Assembly (NCBI GenBank): GCA_021815365.1
Contig: JAKAGZ010000001.1
Span: 124,001-188,000 of the forward strand
Length of the DNA stretch: 64,000 bases
Source: Bacteroidota bacterium
Lineage (GTDB): Bacteria; Bacteroidota; Ignavibacteria; Ignavibacteriales; Ignavibacteriaceae
Direction: 5' to 3'
A model generated the notes under the pieces. That model saw nothing but the letters and a program-made list of their open reading frames with translations, was not told the origin of the DNA and searched no databases. Below are positions 5,953 through 19,827 of the stretch, in pieces; the first letter of the stretch is position 1; each line of letters opens with the position of its first letter. Both the position numbers and the translations under genes were made by a program.

Positions 5953-8097
5953 TTAGCGGAGGAGGATCATTTTTTTCGTTTCAACAAAGTTATTAGTTTG
6001 CAACCGGTAGAAATAAACGCCGCTAGATAGCTTAGAAGCATCAAAATTATAGTTATAAATTCCTGCTTTCAGATTTTCATTAACAAGGGTAGCAACTTCT
6101 CTTCCCAATATATCGTATACTTTTAATGAAACAAATCCTCCGCCAGAGGCGGAAGCAATCCGCCCGCTTTTAGCGAGGTCTCGTCCCGAAGGGACGGAAA
6201 ATCCGATATTAGTAGAGGGGTTAAAAGGATTGGGGTAATTTTGCTGCAATGTAAATGACTGAGGAATTTCTGAAGAAACCAGGTCGATTGATGTTAGTGG
6301 TTGACTGCTTTTGTAAATTGCTGCAGACGTAGCTGCCCACAATGTTCCATCGCCTGCAAAAGAAAATGCATTTACAGAAACGTGTGTTTTTGTAGTCCCG
6401 GGCCATACATTTGTTGCAACCTGTGACCACGAGTCGCCATTAGTTGACGATTTGTAGACACCCGTTTTACTTGCAAGAATAATTGTTCCGGCAGAATTTG
6501 ATATTATTTGTTGAATACTGCTGTCGGGTGTTGTAATATGCTGCCATGAATCGCCGTTATCAGTGGAGCGCCACACACCGTAATCGGTTTTTAAAGGCGA
6601 ATATCCGACTGAAGTGAAAAGCATTCCGTTTGGTACTTCAGCAACTATAGCTGTAAGAAAGAATGATCCGCTTCCGAGAACGCGCGTCCACATCGTTTCT
6701 GCTGATTTCCAGCGATAGAGTCCTTGATTTCCTGCAATGTAACGGCTGCCGTTTTTAGCAGCAATCATTGTATAGTTGTATTTTGCCCCTAACCCCGCCG
6801 TATCCAGCGTCCACGTTGTGCCATTGTCTGTAGATTTGTATGCACCCTGATCGTTAGCATGATACAGTGTTCCATTTCCATCTTTCACCAAACCTTCAAC
6901 ACGTAATCCTTTTTGTGAAAGAAGCGTCCAAGTATCACCGCCGTCGGAAGAAGAGTACAACCCGCCGTAATATGTTCCGGCAAGTAAAACATTCCCCGGC
7001 ATTTCTAACCACGAAACGACTATGTTATGAGGCAATCCTTTCTGTATTTGTGTCCATGTTGTTCCATTGTCTGTTGATCGGAATTGCCCTGCAAAAGTTC
7101 CGGCATATATCGCCCCGCTGCTATGCATATAAATTCCTCTTGCACCAAGCGGTGGAAATTTTGAAGTAATTGATGTCCAGGTTGCACCGCCATCGGTTGA
7201 ACGGTTCAGTGCCGCACGTGTGGAAACAAACAGCTTTCCGTTTGGAGCTGCGGCTATGTAATCGGCAAAAGGATATGAAAGACCTGATGAGATCAATGTC
7301 CATGCATCACCGTTATTTGTTGATTTGTAAATTCCGGTTCCTAGTGTTCCTGCATAAACATTCCCTAAAGAATCTGTGTCGAGAGCATAAACATTGCTGT
7401 CTGCTAATCCGGCTGAAACATCCATCCAGTTTGCACCATTATCAGTTGAACGGAAAAGCCCTTTATCTGATCCGGCAAACATTACGCCGCTTATTGTAAC
7501 GCTGATTTTCTTAAATGAATTTGCTGTAATTGTTATTGTAGACCAATTAACACCGTTATTGGTGGAACGAAAGAGACCGCTGTATGTTCCGGCAATTACA
7601 ATATTGTTCGAACCAAAACCAAATGCGTATACATTATTCTGTGTCAGCCCTGAGGAATAACGATTCCATGATGTGCCGTTGTCGGTTGAACGAAACACAT
7701 GGTTATTTGTACCGACAAAAAAATCACCTGTCTGACTTTTTGCAATTGTGTAAACACTAATTGGCGAAATGCCAAGGTTTACCGCCGACCAATTTTCACC
7801 ATTATTTGCAGACACAAATAGTCCTTTAAAATCTCCCCCGTACAATTTTGCATCATCGTTTTGAAAAAATGTGACGAAAAAAAATGTGCTGTCTTTAATA
7901 CCGGTCCACGTGTCCCCGTCATCGGTTGACTTCATTACTGAGTCACCGTACATATACACCGTTCCGTTCGAAGAAATAAATAGCCCGTCACTTTCATTTG
8001 GTCCGAACGGTCCGTTTGGCTGAGTCCAAAAATTCTGTGCGTTCAGAAGCTGCATGGCATTGATTATAAATAAAGCAATGTAAAACAACTTTTTCAT
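5953..8097 (-). CDS. Secreted beta-propeller (sortilin/BNR-like) protein with T9SS tail
   Basis: 714 residues. A signal peptide (MKKLFYIALFIINAMQLLNA) is followed by about a dozen repeats of the form STDNG.(T/S)W....GL with a GT..G(L/I)(Y/F)RS step, the BNR/Ycf48-type propeller pattern. The last ~85 residues are a type IX secretion type A sorting domain (NYPNPFNPST, LKVYDILGREVATLVNE, SGVYFYRL, KKMILLR). It is therefore probably exported across the outer membrane and anchored or released. A 20-residue segment encoded by palindromic DNA (6139-6198) interrupts the tail domain. It is a paralogue of 8383-9663 with an identical 101-bp upstream block. Ligand unknown. Confidence 0.9.
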   Translation of the reverse strand: MKKLFYIALFIINAMQLLNAQNFWTQPNGPFGPNESDGLFISSNGTVYMYGDSVMKSTDDGDTWTGIKDSTFFFVTFFQNDDAKLYGGDFKGLFVSANNGENWSAVNLGISPISVYTIAKSQTGDFFVGTNNHVFRSTDNGTSWNRYSSGLTQNNVYAFGFGSNNIVIAGTYSGLFRSTNNGVNWSTITITANSFKKISVTISGVMFAGSDKGLFRSTDNGANWMDVSAGLADSNVYALDTDSLGNVYAGTLGTGIYKSTNNGDAWTLISSGLSYPFADYIAAAPNGKLFVSTRAALNRSTDGGATWTSITSKFPPLGARGIYMHSSGAIYAGTFAGQFRSTDNGTTWTQIQKGLPHNIVVSWLEMPGNVLLAGTYYGGLYSSSDGGDTWTLLSQKGLRVEGLVKDGNGTLYHANDQGAYKSTDNGTTWTLDTAGLGAKYNYTMIAAKNGSRYIAGNQGLYRWKSAETMWTRVLGSGSFFLTAIVAEVPNGMLFTSVGYSPLKTDYGVWRSTDNGDSWQHITTPDSSIQQIISNSAGTIILASKTGVYKSSTNGDSWSQVATNVWPGTTKTHVSVNAFSFAGDGTLWAATSAAIYKSSQPLTSIDLVSSEIPQSFTLQQNYPNPFNPSTNIGFSVPSGRDLAKSGRIASASGGGFVSLKVYDILGREVATLVNENLKAGIYNYNFDASKLSSGVYFYRLQTNNFVETKKMILLR
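6139..6198. repeat. Composite palindromic insert inside the T9SS tail
   Basis: 60 bp, exactly 20 codons, made of three small palindromes: TCCGCC-AGA-GGCGGA (6139-6153), CGCTTTTAGCG, and GTCCC-GAA-GGGAC (6183-6195). It encodes SVPSGRDLAKSGRIASASGG, most of it absent from ordinary T9SS tails, between the first and second strands of the domain. Confidence 0.7.
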
Positions 8098-8114
8098 AAT
8101 AACCTCCGGCTGGT

Positions 8115-8215
8115 TTTATTGTTGAAAAATTTTTATTTCTTAGGTTAAGAGGAATTTTCTATTGAAACATGATTCTGTTATTAAGCATTATCAATACCCC
8201 ACTCGGGGCATTTTT
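8115..8215 (-). repeat. 101-bp direct repeat upstream of propeller gene, copy 1
   Basis: Identical base for base to 9681-9781 as far as read. It contains the leader and the 7-2-7 operator of the propeller gene, showing that the two genes were duplicated together with their control region. Confidence 0.85.
8195..8210. promoter_or_regulatory. Putative NarL-type 7-2-7 operator, copy 1
   Basis: TACCCCA-CT-CGGGGCA: two inverted heptamers with a 2-bp spacer, 98 bp upstream of the propeller start at 8097. Related sites lie at 9761, 10524 and 13766. The heptamer is close to the NarL consensus TACYYMT. Confidence 0.6.
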
Positions 8216-8234
8216 GAACAGGAAAACATTATTA

Positions 8235-8270
8235 TAAAAAAAGAGCGTTCCGTTTTTTAGAAACGCTCTA
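8235..8270 (-). terminator. Terminator of the second propeller gene
   Basis: AGAGCGTT (8242-8249) pairs perfectly with AACGCTCT (8262-8269). On the minus strand the stem is followed by a run of seven T. It lies about 110 bp past the stop of the gene at 8383-9663. Confidence 0.8.
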
Positions 8271-8305
8271 CAGAAAAATTTACCTCACAAGCACTGAGTC
8301 CTCCG

Positions 8306-8345
8306 TCCGGCAACCGCCGGATTAGCGAAGGAGGACCTGTCCTCC
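8306..8345. repeat. Pair of GC-rich palindromes between terminator and gene
   Basis: TCCGGC-AACC-GCCGGA (8306-8321) and GGAGGAC-CT-GTCCTCC (8330-8345), both perfect. They are intergenic members of the palindrome class also found inside genes. Confidence 0.6.
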
Positions 8346-8382
8346 GAAGCAATTCTATGCTTAGTCTCGTAATATTTGTCCT

Positions 8383-9663
8383 TCAGCGAAGGAGGATCAT
8401 CTTTTTTGTTTCGATAAAGTTATCACTTTTTAATTGGTAGAAATAAACACCGCTAGATAGCTTAGAAGCATCAAAATTGTAGTTATAAGTTCCTGCTTTC
8501 AGATTTTCATTAACAAGGGTCGCAACTTCTCTTCCCAATATATCGTATACTTTTAATGAAACAAATCCGAAATCAGCAATCCGCCCGCTTTTAGCGAGGT
8601 CTCGTCCCGAAGGGACGGAAAATTCGATATTTGTAGAGGGATTGAATGGATTGGGGTAATTTTGTTCTAATATAAATGATGAAGGTATTTCTTTATTGAT
8701 TTCTTCAACTGAAGTAACTGTTGATGCAACACTACGAAATACACCACCGCCCATAGTTCCAGCAAAAATATATCCGCTTGAATTTATGGCTAAAGGTAAA
8801 ATGTCCGCATTTGTTAATCCACTATTGAGTAGAGTCCAGCTTGAGCCATTATCTGTTGAGCGATAAACCCCGTCGCCAAAAGTTCCGGCAAAGATATGTC
8901 CGCTTGAATTTATAGCAAGTGAACTAACAGTGATATTTGCTAAACCTACTTGTGTCCAACTATCACCATTATCTGTTGAACGATGTAATCCTCCCCTATT
9001 GGCTCCAACCAAAATATGATCACTTGAGTTTATAGCAATAAACCGGATTTCAGTTTTTGATAGGTTAGTTTTAGTCCAATTATTCCCGTTGTCTGTTGAA
9101 CGATATACTCCATTACCAAAAGTTCCGGCAAAGATATGTCCACTTGAATTTATAGCAAGCGTGCGGATATCTTTTGATACAGCAATTGATAAACCAGTAT
9201 TAATTTGAGCCCAGTTGTTTCCATTATCTGTTGATAGATAAATTCCATCACCCATACTGCCCGCAAAAACATGCCCGCTTGAGTTTATAGCAAAAGACCC
9301 AATAGAATATGTAGTAGTTAATCCGCTATTAATTTGGGTCCAATTGCTTCCTTTATCTGTTGAGCGAAAAACTTTGCCGTTGCTGGTACCACAGAAAATG
9401 TGCCCGTTTGAATTTATGGCAAAAGATCTAATATTAGTGCTTGTCAATCCGGTATTAACTTTGGACCAGTTATTGCCGTTATTTGTTGAAAGAAAAACCC
9501 CTTCACCGTCACTTCCAGCAAAAACATGCCCGCTTGAATTGATAGCAAGAGAATAAATATAATTATTTGTTATGCCATTATTAATTTGTTCCCAAAAATT
9601 CTGGGCATTCAGAAGCTGCATGGCATTGATTGTAAATAAAGCAATGTAAAACAAATTTTTCAT
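8383..9663 (-). CDS. Secreted beta-propeller protein with T9SS tail (paralogue)
   Basis: 426 residues, a shorter paralogue of the gene at 5953-8097. A nearly identical signal peptide (MKNLFYIALFTINAMQLLNAQ) is followed by about eight repeats of roughly 40 residues: AINSSGHIFAGT.G.GVYRSTDNGNNWT. The C-terminus is a type A T9SS domain with NYPNPFNPST and KKMILLR. The DNA of the tail and of the 101 bp upstream is almost the same in both genes, so duplication or gene conversion is recent. The tail holds a shorter version of the palindromic insert (8578-8619). Likely controlled by the adjacent two-component system. Confidence 0.9.
   Translation of the reverse strand: MKNLFYIALFTINAMQLLNAQNFWEQINNGITNNYIYSLAINSSGHVFAGSDGEGVFLSTNNGNNWSKVNTGLTSTNIRSFAINSNGHIFCGTSNGKVFRSTDKGSNWTQINSGLTTTYSIGSFAINSSGHVFAGSMGDGIYLSTDNGNNWAQINTGLSIAVSKDIRTLAINSSGHIFAGTFGNGVYRSTDNGNNWTKTNLSKTEIRFIAINSSDHILVGANRGGLHRSTDNGDSWTQVGLANITVSSLAINSSGHIFAGTFGDGVYRSTDNGSSWTLLNSGLTNADILPLAINSSGYIFAGTMGGGVFRSVASTVTSVEEINKEIPSSFILEQNYPNPFNPSTNIEFSVPSGRDLAKSGRIADFGFVSLKVYDILGREVATLVNENLKAGTYNYNFDASKLSSGVYFYQLKSDNFIETKKMILLR
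8578..8619. repeat. Palindromic insert in the second T9SS tail
   Basis: Shares CGCTTTTAGCG and GTCCC-GAA-GGGAC (8604-8616) with 6139-6198 but lacks the TCCGCC-AGA-GGCGGA unit, so the two paralogues differ by gain or loss of one palindrome in frame. Confidence 0.65.
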
Positions 9664-9680
9664 AATAACCTCCTGATGGC

Positions 9681-9781
9681 TTTATTGTTGAAAAATTTTT
9701 ATTTCTTAGGTTAAGAGGAATTTTCTATTGAAACATGATTCTGTTATTAAGCATTATCAATACCCCACTCGGGGCATTTTT
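9681..9781 (-). repeat. 101-bp direct repeat upstream of propeller gene, copy 2
   Basis: Second identical copy of 8115-8215, placed at the same distance from the start codon. Confidence 0.85.
9761..9776. promoter_or_regulatory. Putative NarL-type 7-2-7 operator, copy 2
   Basis: TACCCCA-CT-CGGGGCA, 98 bp upstream of the propeller start at 9663, in the duplicated control region. Confidence 0.6.
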
Positions 9782-9810
9782 AAGGAGAGTTCCAGAACTA
9801 AGTTATAAAA

Positions 9811-10488
9811 CTAAAGTTTTCCCAGCCGCGCTCTCACTGCTTCTGCGCGTGTATGTATGTGAAGTTTTTTGTAGATGTTTTTGATATGGGTTTTTACTGT
9901 GTGTGGACTTAAAAACAGATCTTTTGCTATTGAAGTATAACTACCGCCCTTTACCAGCTCGTCAAGAAGCTCAAGCTCGCGCTTTGACAGTATGAATTCA
10001 GGATCTACTGGATTTTTACTTTCTGCAAATTTGGATTTTTCCATTTCCGATTTATTCCCGATCAGTGCTAAAACTTTCCTGGCAATTGACTGTGAAATAG
10101 GTGCGCCGCCGTTATATAATTCCTTTACTGAATCAATTATAACTTCGAAGGGTTCATCTTTTAAAATATATCCCGATGCCCCGGCTTTAATTGATTCAAA
10201 AATTTTTGAATCATCTTCGAATACTGTAAGCATCATTATGTCAATGTCTGGATATTTTTCTTTTATTTCAGCAGTTGTTGCTATGCCGTTTTTTTTGGGC
10301 ATCTCTATATCCATCAGGATAATATCCGGCAGATCATACCTGTTCATTTTGTCCAGCGAGTTTATGATGCTCTCTCCGTTTGAGTATTTGCCGGTCACCT
10401 TAAAAGTCTTATCTATATTAAAGCCCTCAGCAAATCTTTCCTGGAGGATTTTTGAATCTTCTACTATTGCTATTTTTATTTTTTCCAT
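9811..10488 (-). CDS. NarL/FixJ-family response regulator
   Basis: 225 residues: CheY-like receiver (about 1-125) and LuxR-type helix-turn-helix (about 160-225). The receiver has acidic E10/D11, phospho-acceptor D60 in IILMDIEMP, and the switch Lys in YILKDEP. The C-terminal motif SKRELELLDELVKGGSYTSI with HTVKTHIKNIYKKLHIHTRAEA is typical. It is encoded 57 bp downstream of the propeller histidine kinase, its obvious partner, and just upstream of the two propeller genes. A 7-2-7 inverted repeat (10524-10539) lies 36 bp before its start, suggesting autoregulation. Confidence 0.93.
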   Translation of the reverse strand: MEKIKIAIVEDSKILQERFAEGFNIDKTFKVTGKYSNGESIINSLDKMNRYDLPDIILMDIEMPKKNGIATTAEIKEKYPDIDIMMLTVFEDDSKIFESIKAGASGYILKDEPFEVIIDSVKELYNGGAPISQSIARKVLALIGNKSEMEKSKFAESKNPVDPEFILSKRELELLDELVKGGSYTSIAKDLFLSPHTVKTHIKNIYKKLHIHTRAEAVRARLGKL

Positions 10489-10523
10489 TGATGATAAATA
10501 AGACTTATATTCTTTTTTTAATA

Positions 10524-10539
10524 TACCCCAGTTGAGGTA
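10524..10539. promoter_or_regulatory. Putative NarL-type 7-2-7 operator, copy 3
   Basis: TACCCCA-GT-TGAGGTA, between the histidine kinase stop and the response regulator start, 36 bp upstream of the latter. Confidence 0.55.
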
Positions 10540-10545
10540 AAAATG

Positions 10546-13500
10546 TTATTTGTCTTTGAGCCTGAGGACAACAGAAACAGAAACACCGGCATTTTTCCCT
10601 GAGCTTAAATTCAATTCAGCGCCAATTTCATTTGCTCTTCTTTTCATATTTTCTATCCCGTTGCCATTTACCAGGTCAAAATCTTTCTCTTTAATTCCAA
10701 TTCCGTTATCCCTGATTATTACTTTCAGGAATTCACCAGTTGCGGATATTTCAATATTAATTTTGTCCCCGCCTGAATGCTTTGTGCTGTTAGTTACTGC
10801 TTCCTGAATTATTCTTATTAGATAAAGAACCTGGAGCGGCTTTAACATTAAAGGTGGATTGGTATTATTATCAGTCGTTAGTTCAATTTTCCCGGCGAAG
10901 TATTTTGAATATTTTTCAATTATTTTTTTAAGTTCTGAGATAAAACTATCAAAGTTCATTTCGTTGGATTTTAATGCCCAGATGGTTTCTCTGAGCTGCG
11001 TCATTGTTTCTCTTAATTCATCTTTTAGCGAAGCAAGAAGATTATCAGCTTTTGGCTTCTCGGTTCTGTTGTAAATTTCTGCCAGCCCGATGCCAGTAAT
11101 TATGTTCGTAAGTTGAGAGCCGACACTGTCGTGCAGGTCCCGTGAGATCCTTTCTCTTTCTTTCTGAACAGCTTTCTCTTTTTCCAGGTCGTAAATTCTT
11201 TCTTTTAGTTTTTTCGTGGAATAATATCTTACTGTGCCAACCAGCGTTGATAAAGCTGCGAAGCCGCATAATGTTATAAACCACCACGTACGCCAGAAGG
11301 GGGGCGTTACGATAATATTCAGACTAGCGCCGTCGTTATTCCAGGCATCATCATTGTTTGAAGCTTTAACTCTTAAAGTATATTTGCCCGGGTCGAGGTT
11401 CGTATAACTTGCAAAACGTCTGTGACCCGCTTTTATCCACGCATCATCAAAACCTTCCAGCTTATATTCATAATTATTATTAGATGGAAGGGAGTAGTCG
11501 AGCGCTGCAAATTCAACAGAAAAAAATTTGTCGAAATATGAAAGCTCGATGTTCTTCTTAAAAAGAATGGAAGAGTCAGTATTTATTTCTTTATCTAAAA
11601 TTTTAAAAGAGGTGAAATAAACAGGTGGGATATGGTTATTATTTTCCATGTTGCCGGGATAAAACCTGTTAAATCCGTTAACGCCGCCGAAAAACATTTC
11701 ACCATCCTGCGCTTTGTAGAAAGCTCCCGTATTGAATTCGTTGTTTTGCAGTCCATCTTCAACAGTATAAATTTTAAATGAATTATTCTTCCGGTTGTAT
11801 TTTGTTATGCCGTAGTTTGTGCTGATCCATAAATTTTCTTCATCGTCTTCAAGGATCGCATAAGTAAAATTATTGGATAAGCCGTCTTTTTCTTTTAGGG
11901 AGTAAAATTTGCCTGTCTGTCTTTCAAACTTATTAATACCTCCGCCGTAAGTAGCAATCCACATTTCACCGTTTTTAGTTTCTGTTATTTGCCTGATGTC
12001 GTTATAACTTATGCTGAAAGGATCGTGTGGATTATTTTTGTACCTGGTTGTCTTCCCCGATTCAGGATCGAATTTGATAAGTCCATCCCTGTAAGTGCCG
12101 AACCACAAATTATAGTTTTTGTCTTCGTAAATAAATCTTACTAGTATGGGGTTTTCTTGATCAGAAAAATAGCGGGTCCATATTCCCGAGTTTATATCAT
12201 ATTTGCATACGCCCCCGGCTCCACCCTCCACGCCTATCCATACATTTCCTTTGCTGTCTTCGGTTATACATTTTATATCGTTGCTGCTGATTGAATTCTT
12301 GTTCCCGGGATCGTATCTGAAAATCTTGAACTTATTATTTTTAACGTCAAAACGATTTAAGCCATCTGAAGCGATCCATAAATACCCATGCCTGTCTTCA
12401 AAGATTGCGCCGACAGTATTCCCGCTTAAGGAATTTTTGTCTCCTGTTTTTTTCAGATAATGTATGAATTTTTTTTGATCCTTCCCTAATTTGTTCAATC
12501 CGCCGGATGAAGTTCCAACCCAAACGTTTCCGCTCCTGTCTTTCAGTATTGCAAAAACAAAATTACCAGCCAGTGAGTTGTTATCAAAAGGATTATTCGA
12601 GTAGCGGATGAACTTATTAGCTTGCCTGATAATTTTATTAACACCGCCGCCCCACGTACCAACCCAGAAATTATTCTGATCATCCCTGAATATGTCGCTT
12701 ATCTTGTTGCTGCTGACAGAGGAAGTGTTATCAGGATCATTTTCAAAAGAGGAGAAAGATTTCTTCTCTTTGTCGAAAAGAAAAAGCCCTTGCCCGTCTG
12801 ATCCAATTAACAGACTCTTTTTATCGTAAGGGATAATTGTTCCGAAAAAAGGAATTTTTGTATCTCCCTTTTTGTGTTCCTTCGGAAAATATAAATGGAA
12901 CTTGTTGTTCTTCTCATCATACCTGGTCAATCCACCACCCCTTGTTGTTATCCAAAGCATATCATCTTCGTCTTTGTAAATGTACTGCACAAAGTTATCG
13001 TTCAGGCTGTTAGGATTTTTTTTATCGTGGTAAAACCGTTTGAAAATTTTTTTAACAGGATCAAACCGCGTCATCCCGTTTACGGAGGTTATCCAGATTA
13101 CTCCATCTTTATCTTTGAATAAGCCGCTGAGCGCTTTATTGCTCGGGCTGTTAGAATTATTTTGGTCGTATGTGAAATGCTCAAACTTTCCGGTTCGAGG
13201 GTCAAGCAGGTCAAGCCCGTCATCAGTTGTGATCCAGAATTTTCCTGAACTGTCCTCAACTATAGCCGAAACTTTGTCATTACTCAGGCTGTTAGCGTCT
13301 GCAGGGTTGTGTCTGTAGTGAGTAAACGTCTCGGTTTTTTTGTTAAACTTGTTCAGCCCGCCGTCGCGTGTTGTAATCCAGAGCCAGCCTTTTGAATCTT
13401 CGTAAATCTGGTGTACAAAGTTGCTCGAAAGTGATGCCGGGTCATTTTCATTATGCTTAAATATTTTACATGAATAACCATCGAACCTGTTCAGTCCGTC

Positions 13501-13677
13501 AATCGTTCCGAACCATAAAAAGCCTTCCCTGTCCTGCGAGATATCAATTATGCTGTTGTGCGATAAATTCTGTTTTTCGTTTACATGCTCGAATTTGAAA
13601 TTAGCACCCTGGGCAAAACAAAGATGAGACAAAGCCCAGAATAAGATTAAGCTGTTAATTTCCCTCAGACGGCACAT
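10546..13677 (-). CDS. Two-component-propeller sensor histidine kinase
   Basis: About 1043 residues from the chosen ATG. Order: signal peptide (LILFWALSHLCFA), some fourteen regulator-propeller repeats (SSNFVHQIYEDSKGWLWITT type), a Y_Y_Y domain with YKLEGFDDAW, one membrane helix (WWFITLCGFAALSTLVG), HisKA_3 with the phospho-acceptor His in RDLHDSVGSQL near residue 850, and a HATPase with NGIGIKEKD and NGIENMKRRA. It is a periplasmic two-propeller sensor that signals to the adjacent NarL-type regulator. The frame is open up to a GTG at 13773, but that start would cover the operator at 13766-13781 and add a second hydrophobic segment. The ATG at 13677 gives a clean signal peptide. Confidence 0.92.
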   Translation of the reverse strand: MCRLREINSLILFWALSHLCFAQGANFKFEHVNEKQNLSHNSIIDISQDREGFLWFGTIDGLNRFDGYSCKIFKHNENDPASLSSNFVHQIYEDSKGWLWITTRDGGLNKFNKKTETFTHYRHNPADANSLSNDKVSAIVEDSSGKFWITTDDGLDLLDPRTGKFEHFTYDQNNSNSPSNKALSGLFKDKDGVIWITSVNGMTRFDPVKKIFKRFYHDKKNPNSLNDNFVQYIYKDEDDMLWITTRGGGLTRYDEKNNKFHLYFPKEHKKGDTKIPFFGTIIPYDKKSLLIGSDGQGLFLFDKEKKSFSSFENDPDNTSSVSSNKISDIFRDDQNNFWVGTWGGGVNKIIRQANKFIRYSNNPFDNNSLAGNFVFAILKDRSGNVWVGTSSGGLNKLGKDQKKFIHYLKKTGDKNSLSGNTVGAIFEDRHGYLWIASDGLNRFDVKNNKFKIFRYDPGNKNSISSNDIKCITEDSKGNVWIGVEGGAGGVCKYDINSGIWTRYFSDQENPILVRFIYEDKNYNLWFGTYRDGLIKFDPESGKTTRYKNNPHDPFSISYNDIRQITETKNGEMWIATYGGGINKFERQTGKFYSLKEKDGLSNNFTYAILEDDEENLWISTNYGITKYNRKNNSFKIYTVEDGLQNNEFNTGAFYKAQDGEMFFGGVNGFNRFYPGNMENNNHIPPVYFTSFKILDKEINTDSSILFKKNIELSYFDKFFSVEFAALDYSLPSNNNYEYKLEGFDDAWIKAGHRRFASYTNLDPGKYTLRVKASNNDDAWNNDGASLNIIVTPPFWRTWWFITLCGFAALSTLVGTVRYYSTKKLKERIYDLEKEKAVQKERERISRDLHDSVGSQLTNIITGIGLAEIYNRTEKPKADNLLASLKDELRETMTQLRETIWALKSNEMNFDSFISELKKIIEKYSKYFAGKIELTTDNNTNPPLMLKPLQVLYLIRIIQEAVTNSTKHSGGDKINIEISATGEFLKVIIRDNGIGIKEKDFDLVNGNGIENMKRRANEIGAELNLSSGKNAGVSVSVVLRLKDK

Positions 13678-13765
13678 AGGCAAAGTTTGATAAAACGTTA
13701 TAAAGAAAATAATGATTGAGCTTATAACTTTAAAGAACAAAATTATCACGAAATTATTGAGGGTA

Positions 13766-13781
13766 TATCCCACTTCAGGGT
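13766..13781. promoter_or_regulatory. Putative NarL-type 7-2-7 operator, copy 4
   Basis: TATCCCA-CT-TCAGGGT, 89 bp upstream of the kinase ATG at 13677; the weakest match of the four. Confidence 0.45.
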
Positions 13782-13793
13782 TTTTTAGTGTAA

Positions 13794-17760: not shown

Positions 17761-19827
17761 TTATTTTTTCATTTCGAATTTGTCGTCAGTCAATCCTGTG
17801 TTAACTTTTATTGAGCTGACGTTAAACTCAAATGATTGCGCTCCGACAGATTGCCTGATCTTAAACGGGTACATTACTCCGTCAACGTTCCTGTAATCGG
17901 AATACTCTGTTTCTTTTGTAAATATACCCTGCGGAACTGTAATGGATTTACTGTCTTTTACTTTATACCCTGTTTCGGGGTCAAAATATTCGAACCAGGT
18001 TTTTCCGTCAGGGAGCGAGAGCTCAAGCTTATATGCGTCTTTGCCGTTTACTTTTTCAGTGCCAGCCAGTTTTGCATTTATCTTTAGGGAGTCTACAATA
18101 AACATCGGGTGTATCATTGATTCATATTTCATTGCCTGCAGCGCATCGCCTTGTATCTCCTGAGTATTTCCTGCAACAGACACAACACCTTTCTGACCAT
18201 CAAAGTAGGTTTCCTGCTTCATTACACCGGCATCAAGCTCACTCATCATCTTATTCGGTTCTTTTTGATAAACAACGGTGGTGATATTCATCCCCTGTAC
18301 AGAGCCGCGCATAATTGTAGTTCTGTCTTTTACTTTTTCAAGATTCTCTCTGCCGCCGATTGCTTTAATATATTTATCTATAATATCTTTTGCCGTTACG
18401 CCTTCAGGAGCTTTATTTTTTGTTGTGTCAATTTTATCTCCGTACTTGTCGTAAAGAGTTAGAGGACCAAACTGCTTTAATCCGTTTTCAATCTCTGAAG
18501 CCTTGCCTACTACAATTACGTAAGCATCATCAGGTTTAATATATTTTTCAGCCATTTCCTGTACCTCTTTCGGAGTTACAGCGGCAATATTTTTTAAATA
18601 ATTCTGATAGTAATCCTTTGGCAGATGATATCTTGCAATGTTGATTGCATACGTAGCGATTGTTTGGGGTCGTTCGAGAGCAATTGCAAAATTTCCTGTC
18701 ATATAATTTTTTGCCATCTGAAGCTCGGAGTCCGGCACTGCTTCATTCCTGATCCTGTTCATTTCATAAAGCATCTGGGTGATTGAGCTGTCCGTTACTT
18801 CGTTTCTTACGCTGGCAGAAGCAGAGAAATGTCCGACCAGCCTATCCTGCACTAAAGAAGAATAAGCGCCGTAAGTGTATGAATGTTTCTCGCGCAGGTT
18901 TTCAAACAGCCTGAAAACTCCTCCGCCAAGAATTGTATTTGCAACGCTTGCTTTTATCAGGTCGGGGTCGCCTAATTTTAATTGTACCGGGTATGCAATG
19001 CTTATTACAGACTGAACTGAATTTGGTCTGTCAACCAAAGCAACAACCCTGTTTTTAGGAGCTTCGGGTTTTTTGTATTTGAAAGATGGTACAGTTTTTT
19101 TCTTCCACGCACCGAAATATTTTGTAACAAGAACTTTTGCTTCTTTTACATTTATATCACCGACCACAGCAAGGTAAGAAATGTTCGGAGCGAAAAATTT
19201 CGAATAATATTCTTTACACTTGTTCAGAGTGATATTGTCTACGGTTTGTTCTGTTTCAGTTTCGCCGTAAGGATGATCTTTACCGTAAAGCAAAGCATCT
19301 TCAACAACCGCAGAGATCGCATTCGGGTTGTCTTTCTGTGCAGCAAGCGCAGACTCCATTCTCTTTTTGATTTTATCAAGCTCTGCCTGTTTGAAATCAG
19401 AATTCAAAACTATGTCTGACATAATGCCGAGAAGTTTTTGAATGTGGTCAGTTAACGACATAGCAAACACACCGTCTGAGCTTGTAAACAATGTAGCCCC
19501 GATAAAATCAATTTCCTTGTCAAGCTGATCTTTTGTTTTGGTTTTAGTTCCTGTACGTAAAAGTTCCCCGGCAGCTTCAAGGTATCCCGTCTGATTTCCT
19601 TCCAGTATCGGCTCTCTGTCAATAGTAAGGGAAAAAGCGACGCGGGGTAATTTATGGTTTTCAACAACGAAAACTTTCAAGCCGTTGGGTAAAGTGAATG
19701 ATTCATATTTACCGAGATTTATTTCCGGCGCCGGTCCCGGTGCTGGTTGTTTTGACCTGTCAACCTGTGAAAATGATGGGACGGCAAAAACGATTGCTAA
19801 AACGAGAATTAAAATTTTGTTCCTCAT
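17761..19827 (-). CDS. M16-family non-catalytic subunit with C-terminal LolA-like domain
   Basis: 688 residues. A signal peptide (MRNKILILVLAIVFAVPSFS) is followed by two M16 peptidase lobes. The HxxEH zinc motif is missing: the equivalent segment reads LEAAGELLRTGTKTKTK. In bacterial M16B pairs one subunit keeps the zinc site and the other supplies the R/Y pair for substrate (here YTYGAYSSL), so this is the partner of the preceding gene. From about residue 475 an extra domain follows (IDKYIKAIGGRENLEKVKDRT... TWFEYFDPETGYKV), resembling outer-membrane lipoprotein-sorting or zinc-protease tail domains. Encoded one base after the catalytic subunit. Confidence 0.88.
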   Translation of the reverse strand: MRNKILILVLAIVFAVPSFSQVDRSKQPAPGPAPEINLGKYESFTLPNGLKVFVVENHKLPRVAFSLTIDREPILEGNQTGYLEAAGELLRTGTKTKTKDQLDKEIDFIGATLFTSSDGVFAMSLTDHIQKLLGIMSDIVLNSDFKQAELDKIKKRMESALAAQKDNPNAISAVVEDALLYGKDHPYGETETEQTVDNITLNKCKEYYSKFFAPNISYLAVVGDINVKEAKVLVTKYFGAWKKKTVPSFKYKKPEAPKNRVVALVDRPNSVQSVISIAYPVQLKLGDPDLIKASVANTILGGGVFRLFENLREKHSYTYGAYSSLVQDRLVGHFSASASVRNEVTDSSITQMLYEMNRIRNEAVPDSELQMAKNYMTGNFAIALERPQTIATYAINIARYHLPKDYYQNYLKNIAAVTPKEVQEMAEKYIKPDDAYVIVVGKASEIENGLKQFGPLTLYDKYGDKIDTTKNKAPEGVTAKDIIDKYIKAIGGRENLEKVKDRTTIMRGSVQGMNITTVVYQKEPNKMMSELDAGVMKQETYFDGQKGVVSVAGNTQEIQGDALQAMKYESMIHPMFIVDSLKINAKLAGTEKVNGKDAYKLELSLPDGKTWFEYFDPETGYKVKDSKSITVPQGIFTKETEYSDYRNVDGVMYPFKIRQSVGAQSFEFNVSSIKVNTGLTDDKFEMKK

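Follow-up and report, generated by a model that had tools for sequence, protein, structure and literature searches.

Organization of the gene block

The window, by which we mean the whole 64-kb stretch of DNA analyzed, contains a block of four genes arranged on the minus strand in the order kinase, regulator and two propellers.

10546..13679, minus strand: sensor kinase with Reg_prop, Y_Y_Y, HisKA_3 and HATPase_c domains; start probably near 13679
9811..10488, minus strand: NarL-type response regulator, receiver and GerE helix-turn-helix; recognition residues K-T-K
8383..9663, minus strand: propeller 2, predicted secreted beta-propeller with Por_Secre_tail
8242..8269, minus strand: terminator-like hairpin and T run, between propeller 2 and S1 (below)
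5953..8097, minus strand: propeller 1, predicted secreted beta-propeller with Por_Secre_tail

The kinase ORF extends to a GTG at 13773, which is the mechanical ORF start, and the likely ATG lies near 13679. In the regulator, a Response_reg match (1.7e-21) is followed by a GerE match (4e-17), an architecture that agrees with its earlier assignment to the NarL type, and the protein resembles NarL-type regulators of solved structure over its full length (E = 2.5e-23 for VraR, 3.3e-20 for DesR and 2e-17 for NarL). Both propellers combine BNR/Sortilin-type repeats with a T9SS sorting tail, and the C-terminal Por_Secre_tail (PF18962) that each carries marks them as predicted T9SS cargo. The sorting tails and promoter boxes of the block are of the Bacteroidota type. 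Inside the sorting tail of both propellers lies an in-frame insert of approximately SGRDLAKSGRIA (6157-6193 and 8578-8614, minus strand), encoded by a hairpin-like 37-mer of which the genome has a third copy, on contig C107; the insert resembles a palindromic repeat element of the protein-coding kind. Past propeller 2, beside the terminator at 8242-8269, perfect short inverted repeats also occur at 8330-8345 (GGAGGACCTGTCCTCC) and at 8378-8397 (a hairpin with AGCGAAGGAGGA).

Inverted repeats upstream of the regulator and propeller genes

According to a preliminary description of this DNA, each of the four genes is preceded by an inverted repeat, and the four repeats share one geometry. The four strings are indeed present, and are referred to here as S1 to S4.

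8193..8212 (core 8195-8210), minus strand: S1, candidate operator before propeller 1, identical in sequence to S2
9759..9778 (core 9761-9776), minus strand: S2, candidate operator before propeller 2, AATGCCCCGAGTGGGGTATT
10522..10541 (core 10524-10539), minus strand: S3, candidate operator before the regulator, TTTACCTCAACTGGGGTATA
13764..13783 (core 13766-13781), minus strand: S4, unsupported candidate half-site before the kinase

In the 7-2-7 frame, S3 pairs at 6/7 positions and S1 and S2 at 5/7, so that these three are inverted heptamers, whereas S4 pairs at 2/7 and thus is not an inverted repeat. The shared geometry accordingly holds before both propellers and the regulator and fails before the kinase. 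Nor are the sites independent of one another: the leader that contains S1 and S2 is near-identical over ~120 bp and continues so into the signal peptide (8100-8215 versus 9665-9782), and the identity of the two sites follows from one leader having been duplicated together with its propeller gene, which makes them one event and one observation. Beyond leader, operator and signal peptide, the remaining sequence of the two propeller genes is divergent, and their 5′ end would represent a recent copy or a gene conversion.

S3 occupies the gap between the kinase stop and the regulator start, which is where an autoregulated module would carry its operator. It lies a few bases past the kinase stop, S2 lies 35 bp past the regulator stop, and the sites of relatives likewise follow directly on these stops, a placement that would also suit RNA hairpins or terminators at the ends of the kinase and regulator genes. 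We consider such hairpins highly improbable, as no T run follows the sites, and the letters shared across each locus, the agreement with the recognition helix and the promoter box at a fixed offset (all described below) are not needed by a terminator. A terminator scan that detects 8242-8269 lists none of S1 to S4, and the terminator reading was rejected on that result.

Genome-wide exclusivity of the candidate operator

Palindromicity by itself is unremarkable, with 1,183 window positions reaching at least 5/7 pairs, and the consensus put forward in the preliminary description finds 12 matches in the window at up to 3 mismatches against 8.4 expected. Relaxed generic consensus scans find no excess of matches in the window or the genome and are not decisive. 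A search for the specific oriented form gives a clearer answer: TRCCYCNNNTGGGGTAT has only three mismatch-free matches in the 3.09-Mb genome, namely S1, S2 and S3. The pattern derives from S1 and S3 and matches those by construction; the exclusivity is the result. Allowing up to 2 mismatches yields 18 matches genome-wide, against 23 for a reversed control. These genome scans are pattern matching only; the remaining near matches are mostly intragenic, and one intergenic palindrome (C38:4006, AACCCCTATTGGGGTA) has neither a propeller nor a regulator nearby. If S1 to S3 are operators, the confinement of the exact sequence to these sites implies that the regulon is the block itself.

Chance palindromes combined with one duplicated leader would offer the plainest account of S1 to S3, given how common weak palindromes are and that S1 and S2 are copies. 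That account is barely credible in view of the exclusivity of the exact operator, the within-locus agreement across genera and the match at a second K-T-K regulator in another order, the last two of which are presented below.

The same genome encodes a second NarL-type regulator (L077, G000:C94 near 18684-19187) with a Q-T-K helix and TACCCAGTTCATGGTAT upstream, the outer letters of which resemble S1 to S3. Cross-talk between this regulator and the block is possible.

Conservation of the layout in related loci

We compared the window with 100 related NarL-type regulator loci, taken from genomes within the same family and order. In many of them a kinase is again followed by a regulator and a T9SS-tailed propeller, with inverted repeats of the same geometry in the kinase-regulator gap and again after the regulator, before the next gene, which is often a T9SS-tailed propeller predicted to be secreted. 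The sensors of these modules vary (TPR, PDZ or Reg_prop) and the output type is the same; the suggestion that the output propellers echo the sensor's own input domain is therefore real for the Reg_prop sensor of the block and not general, TPR and PDZ sensors being found elsewhere. The kinase, used as a query in the collection scan, gave no matches.

The letters of the repeats differ among loci (AATACGGCATTTGCCTTATT, AATCACATCTATATGTGATT, AACCGGACAAATGTTCAGTT and others) and agree within a locus. Scored with composition weighting and a palindrome term, a scheme adopted after the first result was seen, upstream and downstream repeats have a mean joint score of 12.05 versus 7.73 (sd 0.64) for permuted pairings; among the first 41 loci, which are not independent of one another, 0 of 20,000 permutations reach the observed score. 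A second set, mostly of named Bacteroidota and with one locus that repeats a first-set contig, gives 8.25 versus 6.44 (sd 0.39; 0/5,000 permutations). A plain upstream/downstream identity score was dropped as too noisy in AT-rich DNA (p = 0.007, the window not outstanding).

Two complete relatives carry the palindrome ATCACGCA-NN-TGCGTGAT, and neither has an exact copy away from the surroundings of the regulator. G025 has two copies, which flank the regulator; G001 has a flanking pair as well, plus two copies immediately upstream of T9SS-tailed genes in that cluster. The latter pair mirrors S1 and S2, where each copy of the secreted gene is likewise preceded by a site of its own.

Related loci also bear on S4, which might be read as a fourth, degenerate operator that brings the kinase under autoregulation too. 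With S1 to S3 set aside, no oriented match in the window scores higher (12.5, against 11.7 for the next); S4 shares the strand of the other sites, precedes the likely kinase ATG and has a perfect TAATTTTG box downstream. Against these points, its score under a symmetric matrix is within the chance range, the TAATTTTG box is 3 bp out of register, the kinase upstream regions of relatives, tested twice, are no better than permuted loci (1,681/5,000), and no operator precedes the kinase in G001 or G025. With its pairing as low as it is, a role for S4 as an operator is doubtful. On the pairing of S4 and the relatives' kinase upstream regions, an operator before the kinase was rejected as a candidate.

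A different arrangement is seen with R-H-R and R-H-K regulators, where a single operator after the regulator is followed by a conserved small protein of ~81-92 aa that reads NPLSDLISDEIYEIL...YPYLQFDTIRKIVHNPPK; the one such protein tested has no Pfam match. It is found at L064:7056-7328, with equivalents in L060, L068, L069, L078, L079, L074, L113, L117, L118, L134, L144 and L152.

Agreement between recognition helix and operator letters

Regulators were grouped by three recognition-helix residues, at the positions of NarL 188, 189 and 192, and each group was searched for a common palindrome and compared with random groups. Strong, distinct motifs above random groups emerge for R-K-E, R-H-R, R-H-K, H-N-R and R-F-H; the N-T-K motif is also high and is equalled by one random group, and the R-F-R, R-F-K and R-R-K groups show no motif above random groups. 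On the downstream side, to which this comparison is confined, flanks at 200-800 bp score below the first 200 bp for R-K-E, R-H-R, R-H-K, H-N-R and N-T-K, with no such drop for R-F-H and R-F-R.

When applied to the window, an N-T-K matrix trained without it places S1/S2 at the top of all positions on both strands of the 64 kb, one of ten matrices tried there. The R-K-E matrix does not rank S1/S2 top, even though the overall nearest regulators are of the R-K-E type (at most 48% identity). Conversely, a matrix built from S1 and S3 and run over the flanks of 176 other regulators has its top match, GATACCTCCATTGGGGTATT, in L189, a locus of a Cytophagales genome with the only other K-T-K regulator found; the match sits between the kinase stop and the regulator start and scores 17.5 versus 10.3 for the next best in that locus. 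With the same matrix, the 13 regulators with T189/K192, four of which are related N-T-K loci, outscore the other 163 (p = 1.2e-5), and some R-T-K loci have no site visible to it. In the second set, the R-K-E matrix reaches at least 13 bits in 13/42 R-K-E loci, 4/35 others and 1/41 control flanks. Operator similarity tracks general relatedness (r 0.55), and the effect of the helix after correction for receiver-domain identity is small but significant (partial r 0.13, 15/5,000). These comparisons suggest that the operator letters go with the regulator, at a resolution short of a precise residue code. In the literature covered, which leaves out most subscription journals, neither these operators nor a NarL recognition code in Bacteroidota was found described.

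Promoter geometry

Among 79 called sites, the gene-facing side ends in TTG in 44 and starts with CAA in 1. A TAnnTTTG-like box lies at offset 21-22 past the site, with a mean match of 3.89/6 versus at most 2.43 in shuffles, and boxes with at least 5/6 matches within offsets 18-26 are present at 44/76 sites against 8.8 expected. In Flavobacterium, a box of the TAnnTTTG type is located at -12 to -5 (PMC9723704), which, together with the fixed offset, places the operator centre of the relatives at about -43.5, within the range of a class II-type activator site (-41 to -45). In the window, weak boxes are found at the relatives' offset.

10493..10500, minus strand: weak -7 box after S3, TATTTATC (4/6 to TAnnTTTG)
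9730..9737, minus strand: weak -7 box after S2, CATGTTTC (4/6)
8164..8171, minus strand: weak -7 box after S1, CATGTTTC (4/6), copy of the box after S2

If the box after S3 is right, the regulator transcript would be leaderless, starting at or next to the ATG (10488-10500).

The geometry also bears on the sign of control. A regulator that binds S1 to S3 and represses itself and the propellers, that is, negative autoregulation, would show identical sites and identical sharing, and as the operator edge reaches the -33 region, steric blocking is conceivable. The operator, centred at about -43.5, nevertheless precedes the core promoter and does not cover the -7 box, and the weak -7 boxes of the window would fit activator-dependent promoters. 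Moreover, a single NarL 7-2-7 site immediately upstream of -35 suffices for activation of E. coli yeaR-yoaG, and a NarL site at -44.5 is functional in derivatives of ogt (PMC7419079). As such, repression is an unlikely reading, and activation the preferred one.

A proposed local circuit

Computation yields the position of the sites, their sharing within the block, the conservation of the layout, the genome-wide exclusivity and the agreement with the helix; on these grounds, S1 to S3 are very probably operators through which the NarL-type regulator of the block activates its own gene and both propellers. In the circuit that we propose, the sensor kinase would phosphorylate the regulator, a dimer of which would bind the approximately 7-2-7 inverted repeat, with the gene-facing edge of the operator abutting the -33 region (TTG) of a promoter of the Bacteroidota type and its centre at about -43.5. 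The bound regulator would activate its own gene via S3 and the T9SS-tailed, presumably secreted beta-propellers via S2 and S1, and the kinase would probably have a separate promoter. The block is thus probably a compact, local two-component module with positive autoregulation and predicted-secreted propellers as its output. As far as can be judged from sequence, the NarL-type operator geometry, the autoregulation and the secreted propeller outputs proposed in the preliminary description appear to stand, by way of conserved position, within-locus sharing and recognition-helix agreement; its interpretation is largely right because of the comparison with relatives and not because of palindromicity.

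More broadly, the chances are about even that many kinase/NarL-regulator pairs of Bacteroidota and relatives are small local switches insulated from one another, in which a few helix residues predict operator letters so well that regulons can be read directly from genomes. In each such switch, a dedicated operator would precede both the regulator and the neighbouring T9SS propellers, which are predicted to be secreted. An anonymous block becomes a testable circuit, with the questions of which signal the Reg_prop sensor receives and why the output is a propeller, and the ~56 regulator loci with called operators are raw material for a NarL-type DNA-recognition code. NarL-type regulators form a very large family, and such a code could predict two-component targets in unculturable organisms.

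Comparison with known systems

Bacteroides HTCS have Reg_prop and Y_Y_Y input domains and control local targets, and the kinase of the block has the same input domains. An HTCS is a single protein with an AraC-type output, whereas in the block the HisKA_3 kinase and the NarL-type regulator, whose output domain is GerE, are two proteins. VraR, DesR and other NarL-type regulators share the receiver and helix-turn-helix over the full length and differ in operators, sensors and targets; autoregulation is known in this family. The NarL consensus, TACYYMT-N2-AKRRGTA, is close to the TACCYCA-N2-TGGGGTA of the block, where the last heptamer base is A, not T. E. coli NarL, at yeaR-yoaG and ogt, likewise binds as a dimer to two inverted heptamers spaced 2 bp apart, as predicted here, and activates from a single site just upstream of -35 (PMC7419079). 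It differs in governing a global nitrate regulon, whereas the block would have a local regulon of three sites, a Bacteroidota-type promoter and predicted-secreted propellers as output.
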